A stretch of DNA of 64,000 nucleotides from Streptomyces sp. 6-11-2 (lineage in GTDB: Bacteria > Actinomycetota > Actinomycetes > Streptomycetales > Streptomycetaceae), in NCBI RefSeq assembly GCF_006540305.1, contig NZ_BJOR01000001.1:7130001-7194000 (forward strand), written 5' to 3'. The notes below the pieces were generated by a model. The model was not told the DNA's origin. It did no database searches and was given only the letters and a program-made list of their open reading frames with translations. Within the stretch, counting starts at the first letter, position 1. Each line of letters opens with the position of its first letter. Positions 7,480-25,312 of the stretch are shown here, piece after piece. The translations under genes and the position numbers were made by a program.

Positions 7480-9339
7480 ATGCGAGTGCTGGCCACCGCG
7501 GGGCACGTCGACCACGGCAAGTCCGCCCTGGTACGAGCCCTGACCGGGATGGAACCCGACCGCTACGAGGAGGAGCGGCGCCGGGGACTCACGCTCGACC
7601 TCGGCTTCGTGTGGACGCCGCCGGACGCCGAGGGCGAACGCCTCGCCTTCGTCGACGTACCCGGCCACGAGCGGTTCGTGGCCACGATGCTGGCCGGAGT
7701 CGGCCCGGTGCCCGCCGTGCTGTTCGTGGTCGCCGCCGACCAGGGCTGGCAGCCGCAGTCCGAGGAACACCTCGCGATCCTCGACGCACTCGGTGTACGG
7801 CACGCGGTGCTCGCCGTGACCCGCAGCGACCTGGCCGACCCCGAGCCGGTGCGCGCCGAGGCCGTCAAGCGACTGTCCCGGACCTCGCTCGGGACCGTGC
7901 CGTCCGTCGCGGTGAGCGCGGTGACCGGCGCCGGACTGGACGAACTGCGCGCCGAACTGGCCCGGACGGCCCGCGCACTGCCCGTGCCGCCCGCCGACGC
8001 GGACGTACGGCTGTGGCTGGACCGCGCCTTCACCGCGCGTGGGCACGGCACCGTCGTGACCGGCACGCTCGGCGCGGGCACCCTGCGCGTCGGCGACCGG
8101 CTGGTGAACGGGGCCGGCGCGCACACGCTGAGGGTGCGCGGGCTCCAGTGCCTGCAACAGGACCGGAGTGCCGTCAGCGGCGTGGCGCGGGTCGCGGTCA
8201 ACGTGCACGGCCCCCTCGCCGGGCAACTGCGGCGGGGGAAGGTGCTGCTGGCGCCGGACCGCTGGCTGTTCACCGACCGGATCGACGTGCGCGTCACCGG
8301 TGAGCCGGTCGGCGAGCTGCCCCGGAGCGTCACCCTGCACATCGGCACGGCGGCCGTCGCGGTGACCGCCCGCCCCCTCGGCGAGGACACCGCCCGGCTG
8401 ACCCTGCGCACCGCACTGCCCCTGCGTGTGGGGGACCGGGCCGTCCTGCGTGAACCCGGCGGCGGGCGGAGACCCTGCGGTGTGACCGTGCTCGACGTGT
8501 GCCCGCCGGACCTGACCCGGCGGGGCGCCGGACGGGCCAGGGCCGCCGTACTGGCCGCGATGACGGACCGCCCCGACGGAGCGGCCGAGCTGCGGCGCCG
8601 CGGACTCGTCCGCCGCTCCCGGCTGCTGGCCATGGGCATCCCGCCGCCCACCGGGCCGCTCACCGGGGACTGGCTGGCCGACAAGGCCCACTGGGCCCGG
8701 CTGCGCGAGAGGCTGGCCGCCGAGGTCGCGGAGCACGCACGCCTGCACCCCATGGAGCCGGGACTGCCCGCCGAGGCGGCCCGGCACCTGCTGGATCTGC
8801 CCGACCGGGCGCTGGTGGACGCCCTCGCCGCGGCGCCGGGCGAGCCCCGTCTGCTGCGACGGGAAGGGCGCCTGTACCGGCCCGACAGCATCGGTCCCAC
8901 CCTGCCGCCGCCGGTCCGGGCGGCCGTCGATTCGGTGCGGCGCGAGCTGGAGACGGCACCGTTCCGTGCCCCCGAGGCCGATCGTCTCACCGCCCTGGGA
9001 CTCGACCGCAAAGCCGTGGCCGCGGCGGTCTCGGCGGGCGCACTGCTGCGGGTCGGCGACGGGATCGTGCTGCTGCCGGGAGCCGACGCCGAGGCCGCCG
9101 CGGTGCTCCGCCGCCTGCCCCAGCCCTTCACACTCAGCGAGGCCCGCAAGGCTCTCGACACCACCCGCAGGGTCGCCGTGCCGCTCCTGGAGTTCCTCGA
9201 CGCCCACGGACACACGGAACGAGTGGACGACCAGCACAGACGCTGCCGTCCGGACACAGGGACTGCCGTAGTGCCTGCACGACCTCCGACCGCGGCCGGC
9301 CGGAAGCGGCCTGAGCGGCCGCCACAGCCTCCTTGGTGA
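7480..9339 (+). CDS. selB: Selenocysteine-specific translation elongation factor
   Basis: SelB delivers Sec-tRNA(Sec) to UGA codons that carry a SECIS hairpin. The GTPase domain shows GHVDHGKSALV (G1), RGLTLDLGF (switch), DVPGHERFV (G3) and TRSD (G4), followed by EF-Tu-like barrels and C-terminal winged-helix repeats for SECIS binding. The last winged helix ends near DAHGHTERVDDQHRRCR; the final ~28 residues are Pro/Arg-rich and unlike SelB. They coincide with the border of the foreign DNA, so the native stop may have been lost and replaced. Length is 619 residues. Confidence 0.93.
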   Translation: MRVLATAGHVDHGKSALVRALTGMEPDRYEEERRRGLTLDLGFVWTPPDAEGERLAFVDVPGHERFVATMLAGVGPVPAVLFVVAADQGWQPQSEEHLAILDALGVRHAVLAVTRSDLADPEPVRAEAVKRLSRTSLGTVPSVAVSAVTGAGLDELRAELARTARALPVPPADADVRLWLDRAFTARGHGTVVTGTLGAGTLRVGDRLVNGAGAHTLRVRGLQCLQQDRSAVSGVARVAVNVHGPLAGQLRRGKVLLAPDRWLFTDRIDVRVTGEPVGELPRSVTLHIGTAAVAVTARPLGEDTARLTLRTALPLRVGDRAVLREPGGGRRPCGVTVLDVCPPDLTRRGAGRARAAVLAAMTDRPDGAAELRRRGLVRRSRLLAMGIPPPTGPLTGDWLADKAHWARLRERLAAEVAEHARLHPMEPGLPAEAARHLLDLPDRALVDALAAAPGEPRLLRREGRLYRPDSIGPTLPPPVRAAVDSVRRELETAPFRAPEADRLTALGLDRKAVAAAVSAGALLRVGDGIVLLPGADAEAAAVLRRLPQPFTLSEARKALDTTRRVAVPLLEFLDAHGHTERVDDQHRRCRPDTGTAVVPARPPTAAGRKRPERPPQPPW

Positions 9340-9363
9340 TCGTGAACGCCCAATCCAAGGCGG

Positions 9364-9560
9364 TTACTTCCGGAGTCCGTTGGCGGCGGCCTCGTACTCC
9401 GCGGCCTGCTTCGGCGTCAGGTAGTGCGACACCCGCACCAGGATGCTGCCATGCACGTAGTCGCACTCGGCGAGCGTGGGCATCGACTTCGTGACCGACT
9501 CGATGTACTGGGCACGGGCCTGAGCGTCTTCCGGGCTGGTGAACGCCTCGATGGCGCCGC
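9364..9560 (-). pseudogene. C-terminal fragment of a secreted/lipoprotein-like gene
   Basis: The left-pointing frame ending at 9364 encodes a plausible protein tail (GGAIEAFTSPEDAQARAQYI and YLTPKQAAEYEAAA) but its N-terminal part is out of frame and incoherent, so it is a decayed gene. Immediately beyond its stop, 9362-9250 in another frame reads as a second protein-like fragment (LDWAFTITKEAVAAAQAASG) antisense to the odd 3' end of selB. Together they mark the edge of foreign DNA abutting selB. I recognise the tail only as an accessory-element hypothetical. Confidence 0.5.
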
Positions 9561-9658
9561 CGCGTTCGACAGCACACCCTTGTCCGCCGTGCTCAAGGGC
9601 CTGATCTGGCTGGTGTGGTGGGAACTCGTCCTCCGCGTAAGCGGGCTCACCAGCATGG

Positions 9659-10357
9659 TCAGGGCACGATTCCGGCATGGCGTGCCGCGACAAGCCAGTC
9701 GGGGAACTCGCCCATCAACCGGTCGTACAACTCCGCGTTTGACATCCGCTTCGGGGCGTCGCCGGCGGGGAAGAAGCCAGCGTTGTCGATGACCCGCTTC
9801 TTCGGCACCTCGAGGTCGTCGAGCCTGCGCAGGAAGTCGAAACGGTCGGGGCCGAAGCCGATGAACTGCCAGAACATGGGCAGTTTCGCCGCCTTGCACA
9901 GCGTCTGTTCCGCGGCCCGCCGGGAGTCCGGCCCGCCGTCGGTCTGGAAGATGACGAAAGCGGGGTCGGTGCTGTCGGAGTCGAGGTAGTGGTCGATGAC
10001 TTCGTCCATGGCGGCCGCGTAGTTGGTGGAGCCCATGCGGCCGAGCGCTTTGTGGTGGCGGTCGATGCTGCCCTGGTAGTTGTCGACGCTGATGTCGGCC
10101 GCGGGGTGGGCATCGCTGTCGAAGAAGATCGTGGGGACGATGCCGTCGTCGTCGAGATTGGCGGACAGGCCCAAGGCCTGCTCTGCGAGGTGCTGCACGC
10201 TGCCATCGCGGTAGTAGCGGCTCATGCTGCGGGACCGGTCGAGGACCAGGTAGACGGCCGCCCGCTGCCCCGTCAGGTTGTTCTTCTCCAGGGAGACCGC
10301 GGCGGTCTTGGTGAGGTTGACCAGGCCGGCGGGGAGCTTGTCGAAGTTGATCGGCAT
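9659..10357 (-). CDS. VWA-domain protein, TerF-like (tellurium-resistance/stress family)
   Basis: A 232-residue protein starting MPINFDKLPAG. It has a von Willebrand A fold with the metal-ion-dependent adhesion motif DRSRSMS (DxSxS), the Thr of MGSTNYAAAMD and the Asp of FQTDGGPDS. This matches the VWA part of TerF-type proteins found with TerD calcium-binding proteins in actinobacterial stress clusters. No ter cluster is adjacent; a TerD-like gene lies far away at 51.8 kb in the same island. The role is inferred as protein assembly under stress. The start is chosen at the family N-terminus, not the longer frame. Confidence 0.8.
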   Translation of the reverse strand: MPINFDKLPAGLVNLTKTAAVSLEKNNLTGQRAAVYLVLDRSRSMSRYYRDGSVQHLAEQALGLSANLDDDGIVPTIFFDSDAHPAADISVDNYQGSIDRHHKALGRMGSTNYAAAMDEVIDHYLDSDSTDPAFVIFQTDGGPDSRRAAEQTLCKAAKLPMFWQFIGFGPDRFDFLRRLDDLEVPKKRVIDNAGFFPAGDAPKRMSNAELYDRLMGEFPDWLVAARHAGIVP

Positions 10358-10503
10358 CAGGGGTTCCTTGGCGGCGAGGGCGAGGTGAATGGCGACAGCC
10401 TGGAAGGAGGCGGTATCCGCACCCCAACCGGCCGTCGAACAGTCAGCCGAGTGGTGGCCCCGCCACGACGGGCGTGGCAGGGCCCTGCCTGTAGCGGCGG
10501 GGG

Positions 10504-10935
10504 TCACACCGTGCAGAAGCCGGAGGTCTTGAGAGCGTCGTTGATGGCCTTGCCCTCGGCTTCGGTGGTGGTGACGTCCTTGTAGCTGAAGCGCTGAGAG
10601 GCGGCCCAGTCGAGTGTGGAACCCCCGCCGTTGATGGAGCTGCACTGATTACGGGCGGCGTCGATGGCCTTGTCCTCGTAACGGACGACGTCCGGGGCGG
10701 CCTTGGCGAGCGCGTCGAGGAGCTGCTGGCGCTTCTGGCCGGTCGGCTTGGGCGGGATGTCGGCGGCCTTGTGGTTCTCGTCCTTCTGCTTCTGGGCCGG
10801 CTCCTTCTCGGCAGTGGCCGAGGGCTTGGGGCTGGCCGGCTTGCCGCTGTCGCTGCTGGTGCTGTCGTCGCACGCGGTCAGAGCGGCAGCGGCGGTCAGC
10901 AGGATGGCGGCATACGTGGTGGTGCGGGTCTTCAA
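10504..10935 (-). CDS. Small lipoprotein, unknown function
   Basis: A 143-residue exported lipoprotein. The TTG start at 10935 follows AGGGGAG by 3 bases and gives a signal peptide ending in the lipobox LTAC. A Lys/Glu/Pro-rich linker (residues about 30-60) leads to a small helical domain with two Cys residues (NQCSSIN and GFCTV end) that could form a disulphide. It occupies the same relative position in the left remnant as the DUF4190 membrane protein at 39975-40670 does in the main island, since the DNA just upstream is homologous in both places. Confidence 0.6.
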   Translation of the reverse strand: MKTRTTTYAAILLTAAAALTACDDSTSSDSGKPASPKPSATAEKEPAQKQKDENHKAADIPPKPTGQKRQQLLDALAKAAPDVVRYEDKAIDAARNQCSSINGGGSTLDWAASQRFSYKDVTTTEAEGKAINDALKTSGFCTV

Positions 10936-10953
10936 GATCTCCCCTGAGGCGTG

Positions 10954-11212
10954 ATGCATGGCTTGCGTGTGTATGACTCGTGAAGGAGCCGTGTGGTTGC
11001 AGGGGCGGGATGATTCATCCGGCCGTGTCCGATGAGTCCGAGCCACCGGGCGACGCCGTCCGGCGCAACGCCGGTCAACTGGCTGACGCGGATCAGCAAT
11101 ACGAACACGTGGGGCGAGGACGCCACGGGTGTGGCCGCCGTACAGCCAGAGCTTGTCCTCGACCGTGATGCCGAGTTCGAGGAAGGCTGTGCGAGCGCCC
11201 TGCCGCGAGGCC
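10954..11212 (-). pseudogene. Decayed duplicate of the 40.7-41.6 kb Spd-region genes
   Basis: Read leftwards, this stretch encodes a tail (ELGITVEDKLWLYGGHTRGV) that nearly matches the end of the product of 41457-42662, fused after a shift to a tail (LTGVAPDGVARWLGLI) that nearly matches the product of 41194-41457. Further left, 10960-11010 matches 40690-40735 at the DNA level (GACTCGTGAAGGAG). Gene order and strand are the same as in the intact region, with the middle deleted. This is the clearest evidence that 9.3-12.6 kb derives from an element related to the main one. Confidence 0.75.
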
Positions 11213-17837: not shown

Positions 17838-18191
17838 TCAGTGGTTACGTCCAGGAGCGGGAATTGGATGGCGATTTAGGTCAAAACGCGGCAAACATCC
17901 TCGCGGGCGGCGGACCTGGGCCTCGGTGCCGTCGATCCGCGGCACGACGCCCTTGGTAGCGGCGTACGCGAACACGTCCGCAAGCGTGCGAAGCCGCAGG
18001 TCGGGCTGGCCGGGAACGGCGAAGCCCCGTGCGGCAAGCAGTGGGCGGATCTCGTGAACGACGCGGGTGATTGGGGAGCGGTCCACGCCGTAGAACAGGG
18101 CCAGGGCGGCATATGGGAGTTGAAAGCGCAGCCCCGAATTCACCGTGGACGACACGACGCTAGCGGTTCTGGAACGCTTCCGTCTCATCAC
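17838..18191 (-). pseudogene. IS5-family transposase N-terminal fragment
   Basis: The frame contains the helix-turn-helix region of an IS5/DDE_Tnp_4-type transposase (PYAALALFYGVDRSPITRVV, VFAYAATKGVVPRIDGTEAQ) but ends before any DDE catalytic region. About 115 residues remain of a normal ~260-300. No terminal repeats were identified, so it is a relic. Confidence 0.6.
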
Positions 18192-18431: not shown

Positions 18432-18622
18432 TCACGGCTCGTCTGGCCAGGTCGTCAACGTGGCGCCGGTGTCCTCGTCGGTGAGGGTGATGCGGGCGCC
18501 GCGCGTACTGCCGTACTCGGCGATCCAGTCGCGGAACTTCCCGCGCGTGGTTGTCTCGCTGCCCCACCAGCCGTGCATGGCCGGGCGGCCAGCGGCGGTG
18601 AGAGTGAGGTGGTAGCGATCAG
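18432..18622 (-). pseudogene. C-terminal part of a small gene split by two transposons
   Basis: This frame (RYHLTLTAAGRPAMHGWWGS, ITLTDEDTGATLTTWPDEP) has no start of its own because the Tn7-like element begins at 18623. Its 5' part, with a GTG start, is at 24953-24929 on the same strand. Joining 24953-24929, 24376-24369 and 18617-18432, keeping one copy of each target duplication, gives a continuous 72-codon frame. It was head to head with the DUF6233 gene. The product is a small WGS-containing accessory protein of unknown role. Confidence 0.8.
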
Positions 18623-18692
18623 TGTCCTTTGACAGTCAAGTTAGTCCGGTGCAGTGTCCTGGCCTGGGGCGACTAGGTTGGATGTCAAACGA
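18623..18692. repeat. Left end of the Tn7-like transposon with TnsB-type sites
   Basis: After the terminal TGTCC there is a site at 18628-18646 (TTTGACAGTCAAGTTAGTC) and an oppositely oriented one at 18671-18689 (GACTAGGTTGGATGTCAAA). The shared core GACTA-GTT-TGTCAA recurs at the right end. Confidence 0.75.
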
Positions 18693-18770
18693 TCAGACCT
18701 GTCTGTGTGCCGGGACCGTAGGTGTCGCCTGCCCATGAGCGTTGTCACCGGTGGCCTGTAGCTTCCTCGC

Positions 18771-19283
18771 ATGACCAGGTATGCAGATCCAGGTGCAGTC
18801 GAGTGGGTGGAGTCCGAAGGCGGGCCGTTGATCGTTGTGCCGGAAGTAGTCCTGTCTTCGTGGTCCGGTGCAGACAGCGACGAGTCTGAAACCGACTACG
18901 ACAGAGCCTGCGGCGTCGACGGGTATGCCGGACTGGTGGCGGTCGGGCAGTCCCAGGCCCTGGTCCTCGGTGATGACCCCGCCTCGACGTCCTTCCTTCC
19001 GGAACGTGGCCTGTTCGTGCGGTGGTGCGCCGCCGAATCGGAGGAGGAGCTTCTCGGCAGCGTTGATGCCGCGCTCGCTGATGCCGCCTGGGAGCCTGAG
19101 CAACTTTGGGACGTGCCGGGGCCAGTGGTCTTGTTCGACTCGGCTTGGCCTGGTGACGAGTTGGAGCCAGAGAACCATCTGCGGGTGGATCTGGAGCCAG
19201 GGCGCTATTCGGTTCGTGCCACGTATGTGGAACCGAATCCGGAGACCTGGCTCAACCTGGTTCAGCTTCGACGTCTTCCGTAG
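18771..19283 (+). CDS. Imm21-family immunity protein (transposon cargo)
   Basis: A 170-residue protein recognisable as Imm21 by WVESEGGPLIVVPEVVL, YDRACGVDGYAGLVAVGQSQ, ALVLGDDPASTSFLP and LEPGRYSVRATYVEP. Imm21 proteins neutralise polymorphic toxins, usually next to the toxin gene; none is present here. It points away from the transposition genes and is the only non-transposition gene in the element, so it is passenger DNA. It may protect the host against toxins of neighbouring strains or serve another defensive role. Confidence 0.82.
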   Translation: MTRYADPGAVEWVESEGGPLIVVPEVVLSSWSGADSDESETDYDRACGVDGYAGLVAVGQSQALVLGDDPASTSFLPERGLFVRWCAAESEEELLGSVDAALADAAWEPEQLWDVPGPVVLFDSAWPGDELEPENHLRVDLEPGRYSVRATYVEPNPETWLNLVQLRRLP

Positions 19284-19386
19284 CGATCGGCCAAGGCTGT
19301 CCGGCACCCGGTCTCCGAATCTGGTGACAACAAGCCTGTCTCGCCGACTACAAACGGGTAGGTCCGTTGTGGTGGATCAGTGATTC

Positions 19387-20586
19387 CTAACGCGTCTCGC
19401 CAAGGTCCGCTGCTTCTGCGAGGTGGTACCAGTCCTGGGTGGTCGCCCAGGACTGGTAGTCCCGGAAGATTCGGGCGAGGCCGTCCGGCTGTTCTCGTGT
19501 GGTGAAGAACTCCCCGATGAGCCGGTGGAGTGTGGTCACTGCCGCAATGTCGGCGGGCGCGGAGAGCGGGTAAACCCAGCCACCGGGGGCGAGGTGGCGG
19601 ACGAGAACGGGCCAGGTCAGGTCGTGTCCCTTGCCGAGTCGGACGACGAGCCATTCCTGAAATCCGGTGAGCATGCTCCACGAGCTGCCGGCGTCGAGGC
19701 CAAGCAGGAAGGCTGTCGTAGTGGCGTAGGAGCCGTCAAGTCCGTGTCGTGCGGGGTCCCGGCGGATTGCGGTCAGCAGCGCCCGGTAGTGCTTGATCAC
19801 GTTGCCGTAGAAAGGTAGTTGAGCGGCTGCAAGGAAGTCTCCTGAAGGCTGGCCGGGCTGCCGGGCCAGGGTGTCCGTGCTCCAGTGCGGATGGCTGGCG
19901 AGGTAGCGGTGGACGGTGGCGTAGGCGGCGGTGACACCGTGTTCGTCCAGCAGCTTTTCCCAGATCACCCTCATGGTGGGGAAGCGGCCGGCGTGGGCGG
20001 CGGCGTATTCGTCGAGGATGGCGTCGATTGTCGGGCCGATGCGTCCCTTGGCCGGGCCCAGGGTGGGAGGACGCTTCTTTCGGGGTGGAGGCGTGGGCGA
20101 GTTCAGGGCCTGGCGGACGGTGGCGGGGCTGACGTGGTGTCGTCTCGCCAGCTGCGAGACGGGGAGTCGTTCGGCCTCAGCGTCGCGGCGGATCGCCGCG
20201 AAGAGCGCTGGTTTGTCTGCGGCCTTCGTGAAGCTGCGCTTGGGCTTCTTGGGATCCGCAGGTTTCTGGCGCACCAGATCGGACAGGGCTCGTTCCAGAA
20301 CGCCTTGCTGTCGTCCGGTGAGAGCGGCGAGCCGGTCAGGTCGTGGGCGTTTCCCGGGCCCGTAGTCAGGCGGTCCGGCAAGGTAACTGCGCAGGTAGCT
20401 GGGTTTGAGATGGTTCGCGAGGGCCAAGCGGCGGACGTAGGAGTCAACGGATTCTGCAGGCTGCGGGCGAACACGAACGGGAAGCGGAACCAGATGTTCG
20501 GCGAGGTGGGGGCGGACGGACGGATCGGTGTCTTCACCGAGTCCCGGTGAAGGCTGGATGGGAAGCCGTGCGGGTGCGCCGGTCAC
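19387..20586 (-). CDS. TniQ-family target-selection protein
   Basis: A 399-residue protein. The N-terminal TniQ domain shows LPVRVRPQPAESVDSYVRRL and ANHLKPSYLRSYLAG, a pattern of short motifs used to choose target sites and contact TnsC. A middle region has a helix-turn-helix (LPVSQLARRHHVSPATVRQA) that could recognise DNA. It lacks the clustered Cys zinc finger of many TniQ/TnsD proteins. The GTG start overlaps the TnsC stop by 4 bases. It is the only candidate for target choice in this transposon. Confidence 0.8.
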   Translation of the reverse strand: MTGAPARLPIQPSPGLGEDTDPSVRPHLAEHLVPLPVRVRPQPAESVDSYVRRLALANHLKPSYLRSYLAGPPDYGPGKRPRPDRLAALTGRQQGVLERALSDLVRQKPADPKKPKRSFTKAADKPALFAAIRRDAEAERLPVSQLARRHHVSPATVRQALNSPTPPPRKKRPPTLGPAKGRIGPTIDAILDEYAAAHAGRFPTMRVIWEKLLDEHGVTAAYATVHRYLASHPHWSTDTLARQPGQPSGDFLAAAQLPFYGNVIKHYRALLTAIRRDPARHGLDGSYATTTAFLLGLDAGSSWSMLTGFQEWLVVRLGKGHDLTWPVLVRHLAPGGWVYPLSAPADIAAVTTLHRLIGEFFTTREQPDGLARIFRDYQSWATTQDWYHLAEAADLGETR

Positions 20587-21629
20587 CTGGGGGCCTTCCT
20601 GGCCGGCTTCTTCTGGGTCTCCGCCGCGTGGTCCAGCGGGATCGCGGCGAGTCCTTCCTTGGTGACGCGCTCGGTGCCGCTCAGGATCGCGTCGATCGCG
20701 GCGCCCCGGATGGCGTGGGAGAGAGCTCCGATCATCCCGGCGGTCCGATCGTGGAGGTAGCGGTCCAGCTTGACCAAGGTGCCCGGCGGGTGGTCGTGCA
20801 GGAGCAAGGTCTCCTCCATGGTCGCCACCAGGCCCTTCCACTCGGCGCCGTAGGGGAACGGTCGGGTCGGGACGAGGGTGAACCGGCCCGAGATCTGAGC
20901 ACCGCGGGTGCCGGCCAGGAGTTCGCTGGTCTCCAGTCCGATGCCCGCGTAGACGAACGTCGCGGGTATGCGTTCGGAGAAGTACTTCAAGGTGTCGGAT
21001 ACCTCCCCGCCGGCCCGGGTGACCTGCGAAACGTTGTGGATTTCATCGACGAGCACGAGGCCGGTGCGGGCATCGGTGCAGACGCCGACTACGGCTTCGA
21101 TGATGTCCGTCATGTTCGACCGGGGCCGGACCGGAAGACCCAGGAAGCGGGCGAACTCGGCTGCGACCATGCGGGCAGTCGCCGCGGGCGGGACCGTGAT
21201 GTAGAGGACGGGAATGCGGTCGGCGACGTTCGGATGGCGGGCCCGGTCGAGGAGTTCGTGGGCGCGTCCGAGCTGGGTGATGGCGCTGGTCTTGCCCGTG
21301 CCTGGCAGGCCGGAGACCATCAGGCCGCGGCGGGCGCTGATCGCGTGGCGGTTGAGCAGGACCAGGCGGCGGCCGCAGACCACGGTCTTCTCGACGAACG
21401 AGGTCGCGACCACGAGCATCCGGGCGTGATGGTCGAGACGGTCGTCGTCGTAGAGGTCCCGTTCGCTCGTTGACAACTGCTTCAGATCGCCAGGGGGCAG
21501 AAGATCCGGGGGCACCGGCGGGCCTTCGATCGACTTCCGCCATCCGTCCAGGGTGGTCAGCTGCCGGTTGGCCTCGGCATCCGCCTCGCCCAGCGCGGGG
21601 TGCCGGGCTGTCGGCTCCGAGATGGTCAT
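20583..21629 (-). CDS. TnsC/TniB-type AAA+ ATPase
   Basis: A 348-residue ATPase with Walker A GLPGTGKTS (residues 107-115), Walker B LVLVDEIHN near residue 190 and the sensor region FVYAGIGLETS. TnsC/TniB polymerises on target DNA with ATP and links the target selector to the transposase. Its ATG overlaps the TnsB stop by 4 bases and its stop overlaps the TniQ start, which fits stoichiometric expression of the transpososome. Confidence 0.9.
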   Translation of the reverse strand: MTISEPTARHPALGEADAEANRQLTTLDGWRKSIEGPPVPPDLLPPGDLKQLSTSERDLYDDDRLDHHARMLVVATSFVEKTVVCGRRLVLLNRHAISARRGLMVSGLPGTGKTSAITQLGRAHELLDRARHPNVADRIPVLYITVPPAATARMVAAEFARFLGLPVRPRSNMTDIIEAVVGVCTDARTGLVLVDEIHNVSQVTRAGGEVSDTLKYFSERIPATFVYAGIGLETSELLAGTRGAQISGRFTLVPTRPFPYGAEWKGLVATMEETLLLHDHPPGTLVKLDRYLHDRTAGMIGALSHAIRGAAIDAILSGTERVTKEGLAAIPLDHAAETQKKPARKAPR

Positions 21630-23515
21630 GTGCGCCTCCAGGGGTTGGCGAGCGGGTTGAACAGGCCCAGAGGGATGACCTTGGCCACGTCGGTGTCCGC
21701 CTCCTCGTCGTGTGCGGGCTCGGAGGCGGGCAGGTCAGGGACTGGCCGGTCGGTGGCGGTGGCCCGGGTGCGGGCAGCGACCCGCCGGTCACGCCGTGAG
21801 GGTTTGGCCGAGCGGCCCTTCTCCTCAGATGGGCCGCTGTGGGCGCGCAGCAGCAGGGCCGCGGCAGCATCGGCGATCTGTTCCTCGGTCCCGTCCGGGA
21901 CTTGCGCGCGGGCGTGGTCCCAGGCCATCTCACCGAAGGGGACGCCGACGCGGTGCAAGTGCTTCCAGAACACCGTGACCCACTGATCTGTCTCTCCGCG
22001 GCGGTCGCGTACCCAGACTCGGGAGAGGTCGTAGGGGTCGTAGTGGATCTCCCACATCCCCTTCTTTTCCACCACCCCGGAGTGCTGGCGGCGCAACGGG
22101 GCCAGTTCGCGGCCGTCGTAGGTGCGGTGGTTGATCCGGATGCCGTAGGAGTTGACCGCCTGCCAGCGTTCGGGCAGCAACTCAACGTAGTCCTCGCCGC
22201 TGAGAGGGGCCGGCACGTAGCCGCATGATTCCAGCAGGGTCGCGTACTTCTCGTTCGGCGAGAACGCGCGCTTCGGTGAGTCCGGGTCGCGCAGTGCATC
22301 GTGCGGCCGGTTCTGCCAGACGGCGACGATCCACTCGTCCAGCAGGCTCTGCAGCTCGGGCAATGACCACAGAGGGCCGTTCTCCAGGCCCCGCCCGCGG
22401 CGATCCACTGACCGGCCGGTGTAGCCCGCGACGAACTGTGCGAACAGCGTGGCCACTGAGCCCAGTGTTTTCTCGATCGTGCCCTTCTCGAAGGGAGACG
22501 CCTTGTGAGTCGGCTGAAGGCTGATGCCCAAGTAGCGGCAGGACGCCCGGAAGTTGTTCGAGATGAAGACCTTGCCGTGGTCACAGACGATCGTGTCCGG
22601 CACGATCACCGGCCTTGCGGCCGCGTGCTCCAGCCGCTCGTCCAAGCCCAGCAGCCGCCGGTGCGGCAGTGCCGACCTCGACATCCGAAGCGCTTCTGAC
22701 CAGCCAGGACGCATCAGCTCAGGAGTGACGCTCCGGGCCAGGAGAGCAGAAGCATCAGCCGCTTTCGTCGTTGGCCGTAGCACCGCAGCGGGAAGGGACC
22801 TGGTCGCCAGGTCGACCATTCCTGTCAGTTCGACCTTCTCGGCGATCCCCTCGTCCAACCGCACCAGGACGTCCAGCGGCGTGGAGTCGATCTGCATCCA
22901 CTCGCCCGGCGCGCAAGCGGGCACTTCCCCGAACGGTCCGGCCGGCCGCGCGGTCACCGAACGGCGGGTGGTCGCCGAGCCCGTCGCATGGGTGCCGATG
23001 GCCATCTTGTCGAACAGCCGGTAGAGCGTGCGCTGTGAGGGAACCTCGATGTCCGCCGCGTCCTCACGGGCTGCCAGAATCTGCGTCGCCCGCCAGACCA
23101 CGAAGCCGATCGTCTTCGACGATGCCTCGGCCGTCTCGGCGATTGCCTGCTGCATTGCCTCGGTCACTGCCGGGGCGACCCTGCCGAAGGCCGGCATCCG
23201 CTTGGCGGACCGGCCGTCGGCCAGTCCGACCAGGCCGTCGCGCTGGTAACGCTGGCGCCGCTGCTTGATGCCGCTGGCCGACATCGCATGGCCGGCCGCC
23301 GTCAGCTCGGCAGCCTTGGCCCGCTCGCGCTGGGCAAGCGAGTTCACTCTCGGGTCGAACTCCGGCCTTGGGGAAGTCCCCTCGGGCGCATCACGAGGCA
23401 GCCCGTCCAGGACCTCGAGAATGTGGTTCTCCCACCAGAGAGCCTGGCCAGCAGCCGTCTCGGGGAACTCCGCGATCCTGGCCGTCGGAGGAACCCGCCG
23501 CCCTTTCCCCGTCAC
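21626..23515 (-). CDS. TnsB/TniA-type DDE transposase
   Basis: A 629-residue transposase. It has N-terminal helix-turn-helix domains (GHAMSASGIKQRRQRYQRDG), an RNase H/integrase core with acidic residues in WMQIDSTPLD, IVCDHGKVFISNNF and SPFEKGTIEKTLG, then a beta-barrel Mu-C-like domain (SYGIRINHRTYDG, KGMWEIHYDPYDLSRVWVRD). It cuts the 3' strands and joins them to the target. The GTG at 23515 overlaps the TnsA stop; the longer frame upstream is antisense-like noise within tnsA. Confidence 0.9.
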   Translation of the reverse strand: MTGKGRRVPPTARIAEFPETAAGQALWWENHILEVLDGLPRDAPEGTSPRPEFDPRVNSLAQRERAKAAELTAAGHAMSASGIKQRRQRYQRDGLVGLADGRSAKRMPAFGRVAPAVTEAMQQAIAETAEASSKTIGFVVWRATQILAAREDAADIEVPSQRTLYRLFDKMAIGTHATGSATTRRSVTARPAGPFGEVPACAPGEWMQIDSTPLDVLVRLDEGIAEKVELTGMVDLATRSLPAAVLRPTTKAADASALLARSVTPELMRPGWSEALRMSRSALPHRRLLGLDERLEHAAARPVIVPDTIVCDHGKVFISNNFRASCRYLGISLQPTHKASPFEKGTIEKTLGSVATLFAQFVAGYTGRSVDRRGRGLENGPLWSLPELQSLLDEWIVAVWQNRPHDALRDPDSPKRAFSPNEKYATLLESCGYVPAPLSGEDYVELLPERWQAVNSYGIRINHRTYDGRELAPLRRQHSGVVEKKGMWEIHYDPYDLSRVWVRDRRGETDQWVTVFWKHLHRVGVPFGEMAWDHARAQVPDGTEEQIADAAAALLLRAHSGPSEEKGRSAKPSRRDRRVAARTRATATDRPVPDLPASEPAHDEEADTDVAKVIPLGLFNPLANPWRRT

Positions 23516-24264
23516 CGGACACCTCCACTCGTCAGGCGCACGATCGTGGACGGGCCAAGCAACTCCACCGTCATCTCCTCGGCGGTCAGCTCCTGGAGCC
23601 AAAGCAGATGGAAGAGTGCGGGCAGCGTCGCGAGGCGGTCTCCGGCTGCCTCCGCGCCGGCCATCAACGGAGACGGGGCCGCGAAGACCTCCCGGAGCCG
23701 GTCCGCAATCGGGCTGTTCAAGCACCTGGGGTGCCGGTAGCGCGACAGCCACCGGACATTCGCCAACAGCACTCTCTCCGGCACTCCGACCCGATCGAAG
23801 CCCCAGCCGGCCTGATCACAGGCCAGACGGGTCACCTCGAACGCCTCAGCGTCCTTCGACTCGATCCGGTCGTCCGCGCGAACATCGACCACCACCGCCG
23901 AGCCGTCTACCCGGCGCACGAAGTAGTCCGGAGCGTGGCGACGCTCCCGCTTGCCGTCGTACCAGTGCAGCCAGAACGGCTGCGAGGCGATACCCGCCAC
24001 CGTGGAATCGAAGTCCATCAGCAGGAGCCGGTCCCGTTCCAGCCACGATTCGAACCCCACATGCTGCCCGGTCGTCGCCGCCCAGTACCAGCCAGGGAAA
24101 TGACGCTCGCCTCGCGACCAGCGAAAGCGCCGCACCGGAGCGATGTCCTCGAAGCGGGCCGTCACACAGTCCAGCAGCGGACGCCTCAACCGCTCGCGTG
24201 CAGCCCCCACGTACGACAGCTCGACACGCGCTTCTACCGACTCCACCCCAACCGGCACAGCCAC
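23512..24264 (-). CDS. TnsA-like transposase endonuclease subunit
   Basis: A 250-residue protein with a restriction-endonuclease-like core: FESWLERDRLLLMDFD (catalytic Glu), RHAPDYFV (catalytic Asp) and SAVVVDVRADDR, where the usual E-x-K/Q-x-K lysine region reads VDVR as in other actinobacterial TnsA-like proteins I recall. TnsA cuts the 5' strands so the element moves by cut-and-paste. GTG 24264 follows a GGGGGGTG stretch; the longer frame starts outside the transposon end and is rejected. It is the first gene of the four-gene operon. Confidence 0.85.
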   Translation of the reverse strand: MAVPVGVESVEARVELSYVGAARERLRRPLLDCVTARFEDIAPVRRFRWSRGERHFPGWYWAATTGQHVGFESWLERDRLLLMDFDSTVAGIASQPFWLHWYDGKRERRHAPDYFVRRVDGSAVVVDVRADDRIESKDAEAFEVTRLACDQAGWGFDRVGVPERVLLANVRWLSRYRHPRCLNSPIADRLREVFAAPSPLMAGAEAAGDRLATLPALFHLLWLQELTAEEMTVELLGPSTIVRLTSGGVR

Positions 24265-24293
24265 CCAGCACCCCCCAGCCCGTCGCCCCGGTG

Positions 24294-24368
24294 CGACTAG
24301 GTTCGCTGTCAAGGAAGCCGAAACGACTGGGTTCGCTGTCAAACGCCTCGATTGGATGACAACGGACA
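24294..24368. repeat. Right end of the Tn7-like transposon with TnsB-type sites
   Basis: Two direct sites, GACTAGGTTCGCTGTCAA at 24295-24312 and GACTGGGTTCGCTGTCAAA at 24325-24343, are followed by a weaker one and the terminal GGACA ending at 24368. The ATCAG duplication follows directly. Confidence 0.78.
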
Positions 24369-24381
24369 ATCAGGTGCGGGT

Positions 24382-24928
24382 TGTCCGGTGCCACTGAACC
24401 TTGACCGTTTGCCACCGAACTTTGACGAGCGGTTGTTTCCTGCCACTGAAGTTTGACCGGCTGGGACTCGGGGCGACTTGTAGGGGCAGTGGGGGCGCCG
24501 GCAGAGGTCGACGACGGCCTGCTGCTACGTTTTCGGCCCCTGCCGAGTTGAGGCTGTCAGCCGCCTGTACCCGATCACCGCGCGAACCAAGATCGCCGAT
24601 AGGGCGGCGCCGACCGCAGCAAGACAGCCTCGTTCCCACCAAGTCACTCCGGGGCCTGGGCCAGTGAACGCAATAATCAGCATGAACGGCCCCGAGAGGA
24701 GCAGCGTGAATATCCGCCAGTTCGTCCACTCGGACCACGACTCTCGTTGCCGACCGTCGATGTCCACGGGAAAGATCCAGGCGGCAAGCCGCATGGACCG
24801 CCATGGCTTGGAATCGTCTTGTCTGGCACCAGGCATGGAAACGAGTGTCCCAGACAGCGGGTGCCGCGCGCATCGTGGTGCCGGTCAAACTTCAGTGGCA
24901 AGCGGCCAAGGTTCAGTGGCACCGGACA
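24382..24928. mobile_element. 547-bp mini-transposon with 22-bp perfect terminal inverted repeats
   Basis: The left terminus TGTCCGGTGCCACTGAACC is repeated exactly in inverse at 24907-24928 over 22 bases. The direct duplication CGGGT flanks it (24377-24381 and 24929-24933). Left-end repeats of the form GCCAC-GAA-TTTGAC occur three times (24390, 24411, 24444) and two inverted copies lie at the right end. It encodes no transposase, only one small membrane protein. Ends and 5-base duplication match the Tn7/Tn5053 superfamily, but the internal repeats differ from those of the neighbouring transposon, so a different transposase probably moved it. Confidence 0.9.
24525..24836 (-). CDS. Small membrane protein carried by the mini-transposon
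   Basis: A 103-residue protein with two hydrophobic segments (IFTLLLSGPFMLIIAFTGPG and CLAAVGAALSAILVRAVIG) and a polar N-terminal half (SWSEWTNWRI). It fills more than half of the 547-bp element, so the element is a minimal cargo carrier. No family recognised. Confidence 0.5.
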   Translation of the reverse strand: MPGARQDDSKPWRSMRLAAWIFPVDIDGRQRESWSEWTNWRIFTLLLSGPFMLIIAFTGPGPGVTWWERGCLAAVGAALSAILVRAVIGYRRLTASTRQGPKT

Positions 24929-24953
24929 CGGGTCCGGTGGTTTGCGGTGTCAC
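24929..24953 (-). pseudogene. 5' end of the small gene split by two transposons
   Basis: GTG 24953 starts the frame VTPQTTGPAP, which continues after removal of the two transposons into the fragment at 18432-18617. The start lies head to head with the DUF6233 gene, 23 bases apart, so they probably share a promoter region. Confidence 0.72.
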
Positions 24954-24976
24954 CCCCCGATCATAGAATCGAACGT

Positions 24977-25312
24977 GTGAACGACTTGCCGCCGGACTTG
25001 CCGCGCCTCCGCACCCTGGAGATGTGGCTCGCACTGTCCCTGGACCGAGTCCGGGGGGAGATCGCGGCGGCCGAGCGGCGGGAAGCTGAGCGGCAGCGCG
25101 GCGAGCAGGTCCGGCCCCCGACGCCGGACTGGATCCTCGAGCGCGGCCTGAACCGCGACAGCCCGCCCGTCGCCGTCCACGTCGGCGGCTGCCACATGGC
25201 AGGCAAGCGCTGGAACGGCGTACCAAGGGACCTCGCGCTCCGGGCGCTCGCCGAAGGGGTTGAGGCATGCGGGCACTGCCGGCCGGACGCCGAACTCGGA
25301 TACCTCGACTGA
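24977..25312 (+). CDS. DUF6233 family protein
   Basis: A 111-residue protein with the DUF6233 pattern: LPPDLPRLRTLEMWLALSLD at the start, RPPTPDWILERGL in the middle, then HVGGCHMAGKR and the closing CGHCRPDAELG with paired Cys that could bind zinc. These proteins are very common in Streptomyces, usually beside small XRE or mobile-element genes, and have no known function. GTG 24977 is the start nearest the conserved N-terminus. Confidence 0.82.
   Translation: MNDLPPDLPRLRTLEMWLALSLDRVRGEIAAAERREAERQRGEQVRPPTPDWILERGLNRDSPPVAVHVGGCHMAGKRWNGVPRDLALRALAEGVEACGHCRPDAELGYLD

Follow-up and report, generated by a model that had tools for sequence, protein, structure and literature searches.

The stretch of DNA analysed here (the window) comprises 64,000 nucleotides of Streptomyces sp. 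6-11-2, within a genome of 8.7 Mb (contig NZ_BJOR01000001.1; G000:C1:7130001-7194000). In this window, a small gene of 72 codons, divergent from a gene for a DUF6233 protein, is split by two TGTCC-ended inserts, a Tn7-like transposon (the big element) and a mini-element without a transposase gene (Table 1). Both inserts were reproduced to the base as the original prediction for this locus had placed them, with their boundaries, two perfect 5-bp duplications and the 13-bp interval ATCAG-GTG-CGGGT between them, and the prediction was right in taking them for two independent insertions. Excision of both yields the predicted 72-codon frame from GTG to TGA. However, the open frame alone is weak evidence, because each insert together with its duplication (5751 bp for the big element and 552 bp for the mini-element) is divisible by three; the case for a split gene is carried by homology and by the duplications. 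Homologues of the rejoined protein were found in at least 44 of 294 other genomes (E <= 0.001; some matches are weak, and the count is a lower bound, scoring having been limited to the best 20 candidates of each genome). An intact homologue beside a DUF6233 gene, as the original prediction led one to seek, exists in locus L012 (genome G181): it is 60% identical and starts within 30 bp of a DUF6233 gene that diverges from it and whose product is 73% identical to that of the window. The DNA alignment with L012 crosses both joins without a gap there, in a poorly conserved region where the L012 start codon is not fixed.

Table 1. Features of the interrupted locus (positions in the window)
Feature	Position	Strand	Basis or remark
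Interrupted 72-codon gene, main 3' part	18432..18622	-	frame reconstruction, homologues
ATCAG, distal copy of the big element's target duplication	18618..18622		
Tn7-like (big) element, 5746 bp	18623..24368	-	termini TGTCCTTTGACAG / TGTCCGTTGTCATCC; duplications and identical second copy
Cargo gene, Imm21-family immunity protein, 170 aa	18771..19283	+	PF15589, E 5e-62
TniQ target selector	19387..20586	-	TniQ domain (residues 36-105) and IS21-type helix-turn-helix (134-231)
TnsC/TniB-type AAA ATPase	20583..21629	-	PF05621
TnsB DDE transposase, start inferred	21626..23515	-	PF09299; Tn6677 TnsB sequence match, E 1e-4
TnsA-like endonuclease, actinobacterial type, start not fixed	23512..24270	-	NF033179, 305 bits, cut-off 110
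ATCAG, second copy	24369..24373		
Remnant of the small gene between the two duplications, 3 bp	24374..24376		
CGGGT, first copy of the mini-element's duplication	24377..24381		
Mini-element, 547 bp	24382..24928		lacks a transposase gene; end repeats: three left, two right
Second left end repeat of the mini-element	24408..24436	+	CACCGAA at 24413, 44 bp from the big element's terminus; candidate address of the big element
Mini-element cargo open reading frame, 103 aa	24525..24836	-	no Pfam or NCBIfam match
CGGGT, second copy	24929..24933		
Interrupted 72-codon gene, 5' part	24934..24953	-	GTG start at 24953; remainder is 24374-24381 plus 18432-18622
Predicted LexA-type SOS box TCGAACGTGTGAACGA	24969..24984		overlaps the DUF6233 start; 40 bp from the mini-element
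DUF6233 gene, divergent from the small gene	24977..25312	+	PF19746, E 4e-21

The Tn7-like element

The big element has the TnsA, TnsB, TnsC and TniQ genes, the repeat-bearing TGT..ACA ends and the 5-bp duplication of Tn7-like elements with an actinobacterial type of TnsA. Its TniQ scored 30.1 bits with PF06527 (cut-off 27) and matched NF033546 partially and far below the cut-off of that model, while the Pfam TnsA N-terminal model and rve stayed under their cut-offs. No Cas gene, as would mark a transposon associated with clustered regularly interspaced short palindromic repeats (CRISPR), was present among the five open reading frames (ORFs) scanned (Imm21, TniQ, TnsC, TnsB and TnsA), and the immediate flanks, to which the comparison with glmS was confined, are the small gene and DUF6233. 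A second copy (copy 2), at G000:C1:6087271-6093016, matches it at every one of the 5746 bp and is flanked by two GCAGT. Because this copy has a duplication of its own, the ends of the element are independently proved, and the identity of the two copies suggests that the element moved recently. By eye, one flank of copy 2 runs into the start of a padR-like gene.

A homologue of TniQ from Streptomyces sp. NBC_00212 is 93% identical; no relatives were found in phages, and only partial ones on plasmids. A helix-turn-helix match of the IS21-transposase type was recognized in 17 of 19 aligned TniQ members, and among solved structures the best match of TniQ was likewise an IS21-type transposase, albeit a weak one (E 0.02), while TnsB matched the TnsB of Tn6677. 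The IS21 helix-turn-helix domain is thought to bind element ends; its occurrence in TniQ is compatible with the reading of ends, and suggestive only. A helix-turn-helix kinship of TniQ with TnsB was considered and dropped, as no significant profile match was obtained. Outside the inserts, at 17838-18191, the window holds a remnant in which a DDE-transposase helix-turn-helix (PF13613) scored slightly below the cut-off.

The mini-element and related cassettes

Having no transposase gene (no family was matched by the single ORF scanned), ends like those of autonomous relatives and a perfect duplication, the mini-element resembles a miniature inverted-repeat transposable element (MITE). Relatives of 544 bp, 91% identical and with the duplication ATCCC, were found on plasmids of two Streptomyces strains; their termini are of the same kind (one end exact, the other with 1 mismatch in 18), which supports the ends assigned here. 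The cargo frame is open in these relatives, with the ATG lost, and the differences by codon position number 11, 5 and 11 of 104; there is thus little sign that the cargo ORF is under selection. Similar ends bracket TnsABC genes in L057 and L189, where the duplications at the two ends disagree, and the mini-type is therefore most readily understood as a non-autonomous partner of elements of this sort.

The collection contains 19 complete small elements of 246-2072 bp, all with perfect duplications. Where the same kind of end was found on other elements, the cargo differs or is nearly lacking. The cargo annotated on plasmids comprises a NUDIX hydrolase (L059), an alpha/beta hydrolase (L062), a bacilliredoxin (L061, whose two duplications differ at one base) and an ankyrin protein (L058, duplication not resolved). 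On linear Streptomyces plasmids, the small TGTCC-ended cassettes of L055, L056, L058, L061, L062 and L063 are situated some 3-6 kb inside the plasmid ends; a terminal-protein gene is nearby in L062 and L063.

An SOS box as the candidate address of the mini-element

The LexA consensus of S. venezuelae, as given in the available text of PMC9380542, is tCGAAC-N4-GNNCGa, and the box in the window agrees with it at all 10 fixed positions; it is a predicted LexA-binding site. In the pooled flanks of related elements, TCGAAC occurs 30-49 bp from the terminus eight times in the forward and never in the reversed orientation; a few further forward occurrences at 17, 22, 50 and 69 bp fall inside neighbouring element ends or repeat a site, as does one of the eight (L085). 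A direct search of 167 genomes for GTTCGATT at 25-55 bp from TGTCCNNTGNCA returned 11 matches, 10 of them with real ends and, the window included, with spacers of 35-47 bp. Among these 10, L174 (score 13) was accepted by eye and L176 was already known from the pooled flanks. At the control spacing of 60-90 bp five matches were obtained, none of them real by eye and one scoring 15; counted by score alone (>= 14), the test and control spacings gave nine and one, respectively. When the second half-site was sought in 18 motif-bearing loci, agreement peaked at the N4 spacing of LexA sites (3.5 of 6 matches, compared with 2.6 at zero spacing and about 1.5 elsewhere).

Based on Pfam, a DUF6233 gene lies downstream of the box in L096, L085, L110 and L191 as well as in the window; in L189 and L193 the site is 5' of recA (Pfam having been run for L189 only), and the TCGAACATCCATTC of L193 is identical to the S. 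venezuelae recA SOS box in the text available from PMC9380542. Other boxes are 5' of a small unnamed family. Taken together, the spacing, the half-sites and the genes give good support to the SOS box of DUF6233 as the probable address of the mini-element. Palindromes in general were rejected as an address: in the 38 flanks of the 19 small elements the score near the terminus was 5.5 and that of the control 5.3 (p 0.63). Strong dyads were seen in just some of 29 big-type flanks (mean 6.0 near the terminus, 5.2 in the control).

Facing termini and the candidate address of the big element

Collected by their ends, 67 distinct termini were obtained, of which 30 are big-type. With the window included, another terminus lies opposite at 3-13 bp in nine of the 67, compared with six at 14-1400 bp (five if one that is an internal repeat of an already counted neighbour is dropped) and none in reversed flanks; per base, the density of facing termini is about 0.0096 at 0-13 bp and 0.00005 at 14-1400 bp. 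A search of 291 genomes for this arrangement returned nine matches, six of which were judged real on both sides, with gaps of 2, 4, 5, 8, 10 and 13 bp; the other three had gaps of 1, 26 and 29 bp, so that no real pair was found at 14-30 bp, and at 31-61 bp there were four matches, one real and one doubtful. Wider pairs, at 29 and 32 bp, occur in L196 and L198. The pair in the window is real and not a product of chance. In L098 one element sits inside the last 7 bp of another, and in L108 (positions 7536-11177, genome G038) three elements follow one another head to tail at gaps of 2 and 4 bp, with the single outer duplication GTTGG, as if the array had moved as one unit.

Besides the window copy, 64 distinct terminus matches carry the type of end found on the TnsA side of the big element; they include doubtful ones, such as the distal end of copy 2, and only 14 have any TniQ inside. 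Seven of these 65, the window copy being one of them, face another terminus within 13 bp. All three known insertions whose TniQ proteins are at least 86% alike (window, copy 2 and L202) adjoin an element end, at 13, 13 and 11 bp; in each it is the TnsA-side end that faces the neighbour, and the neighbour's repeat CACCGAA lies 44, 43 and 42 bp away. Among the other matches such adjacency was seen in 4 of 62 (p 0.0008), or 4 of 58 without four doubtful ones (p 0.001). L146, with a gap of 5 bp and a degenerate end, may be a further case and was not counted. These observations lend moderate support to the end of the mini-element as the candidate address of the big one.

The TnsA-side end also faces sites of other kinds: a padR-type operator in L124, L128 and L242, TACTAGAGTTATCTCGACATCGAGATA in L125, L126, L127, L225, L245 and L255, and TGATTACGSCGTAATCA in L150, L151 and L152. 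Copy 2 is at a padR-type operator too, but faces it with the opposite end from L124, L128 and L242. Several element types lie about 29-40 bp from the padR-type operator CGATATATCGTTGA (L123, L124, L095, L081, L128 and L242). Big-type termini in L217, L221, L224, L246, L249 and similar loci have a common flank like GTTCGCCGGGGGCAGACAGGAAAG, perhaps a further address or an orthologous site, and in L166 and L229 (G024) a big-type terminus lies about 17 bp from the repeat TCCTCCCCGCCGAAGCGGGGGTGTTCC, which we take to be CRISPR-like.

Order of insertion and alternative explanations

Our preference, by a little more than an even chance, is for an earlier arrival of the mini-element, with the SOS box as its address, followed by that of the big element, for which the end of the mini-element would have served as address. 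Both inserts would belong to one Streptomyces group of Tn7-like elements, in which protein target selectors (TniQ) would direct insertion to a more or less constant distance from an address sequence; that TniQ itself does the reading, which transposase acted on the mini-element and which insert came first are inferred. In a first step, a related TnsABC-TniQ element would have mobilized the mini-element in trans, with insertion 40 bp away from the LexA-type SOS box where DUF6233 starts and hence in the 5' end of the divergent small gene. In a second, the big element would have followed, its own TniQ recognizing the end repeats of the mini-element and its TnsA-side end coming to lie 13 bp away from the mini-element's end. 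The small gene would be a bystander, hit because it is divergent and next to the SOS box.

Several observations weigh against this reading. The motif AATCGAAC, about 40 bp from the termini, was first spotted by eye in the flanks and tested afterwards, and the second half-sites of L195 and L194 are weak. An SOS box is missing beside most mini-type termini: among 43 from end-based searches, LexA-like sites matching at >= 8 of 10 positions number five at 25-60 bp, where control windows of 35 bp average 1.8 and reach 5, and those at >= 9 of 10 number four (two from one genome), compared with nine across the rest of 0-1350 bp. With so modest an enrichment, the SOS box seems to be one address among several. 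The targeting of ends rests on three insertions, two of them in one genome, and the comparison becomes weaker when restricted to matches with a TniQ found (2 of 12 adjacent, p 0.02); several matches of the TnsA-side type have no Tns genes, or may not be TnsA-side ends. The element of L260 has a TniQ 72% alike and does not adjoin an end; as its other TnsABC genes differ (TnsB is only 57% alike), the selector appears to swap between transposase sets.

A further difficulty is that, with the mini-element removed, the big element stands 46 bp from AATCGAAC, inside the 35-47 bp range. Both elements may thus have used the same address, the big one first at 46 bp and the mini-element later at 38 bp, in between; we consider this unlikely, yet it deserves serious weight. 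At Tn7-like att sites, repeated use of one address with some slack gives tandem pairs, and pairs such as that of the window could arise in this way. The newcomer in L096 likewise stands at 38 bp, and its partner, by arithmetic, at 43 bp; two autonomous elements in L124 have one common duplication, GCGGC, before a padR-type operator, and the pairs in L075, L095 and L105, at a gap of 5 bp, also have a single 5-mer common to both elements. However, TCGAAC at 30-55 bp is found in none of the 30 big-type flanks, copy 2 has no SOS box within 100 bp on the side of its neighbour once that neighbour is removed, and in copy 2 and L202, as in the window, it is the TnsA-side end that faces the neighbour. 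That both inserts landed in dispensable DNA by chance and survived is highly improbable: the gathering of small elements of this kind near plasmid ends means that some clustering needs no address, but the abrupt fall in facing termini, and in real pairs, beyond 13 bp is not what chance would give. Hardly to be credited at all is the small gene, or its structure, as the preferred target, for which the two hits in one gene and the commonness of its family could be cited. With the 72-aa query, tblastn (E <= 0.01) found no relative of the small gene in the available flanks of 32 surveyed element loci, although DUF6233 relatives turned up in 10 of them, and SOS-box-spaced insertions occur 5' of recA as well. 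The original prediction of a preferred target was right in spirit, as to a preferred address: among relatives of the two elements, facing termini and the SOS-box spacing recur, but the small gene does not.

Beyond this locus, it is possible, though we would put it at somewhat less than even, that a Streptomyces clade of Tn7-like transposons and one-gene cassettes lands 30-50 bp from host repressor operators (LexA SOS boxes, padR-type operators and other palindromes), while at least one selector, in which TniQ is joined to a DNA-binding domain of IS21 type, has come to read other transposons' ends instead and so piles cassettes into arrays. Such a scheme would tie transposon placement to the DNA-damage regulon and account for clustered cassettes without invoking a special gene, and the SOS-box and operator addresses, together with a TniQ addressed to ends, could yield new site-specific insertion systems for Streptomyces.

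Relation to known systems

The group resembles the Actinobacteria-dominated TnsB clade of Tn7-like transposons described by Benler et al. in 2021 (PMC8649781), as seen in the available text, in its TnsA-like, TnsB, TnsC and TniQ genes, its TGT..ACA ends with repeats of about 20 bp and its 5-bp duplications; the likeness is one of gene set, ends and duplications. According to the same text, no member of that clade had been characterized by experiment as of 2021, so the addresses proposed here would be candidates for elements without experimental work at that date. Insertion next to an existing element is mentioned there in general terms, while the SOS-box spacing, the operator addresses and the end-adjacent placement by TniQ are features seen here and not met in the parts of PMC8649781 available. 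Literature titles and abstract openings, a range that leaves subscription papers mostly outside, contained neither an SOS-box-targeting transposon nor a survey of these cassettes. The TnsD/TniQ targeting of att sites by Tn7, as presented in the accessible portion of PMC10293859, is alike in having an address tens of bp away, one end facing it, and tandem use of a site. In contrast to Tn7, the addresses here resemble repressor operators or a transposon end, not a conserved gene end such as that of glmS.

Two further comparisons concern the cassettes and the choice of target. In their short length, lack of transposase, autonomous-like ends and 5-bp duplications the small elements are similar to MITEs and other non-autonomous cassettes, but four annotated ones carry a cargo gene, and their ends have several Tn7-like repeats. 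Tn5053 and Tn402 target res sites, and IS4321 targets the ends of Tn21. Unlike these, the big element has TnsA, no resolvase among its five scanned genes, and an insertion point 11-13 bp outside the end; what it has in common with them is the use of another mobile element's sequence as its target.

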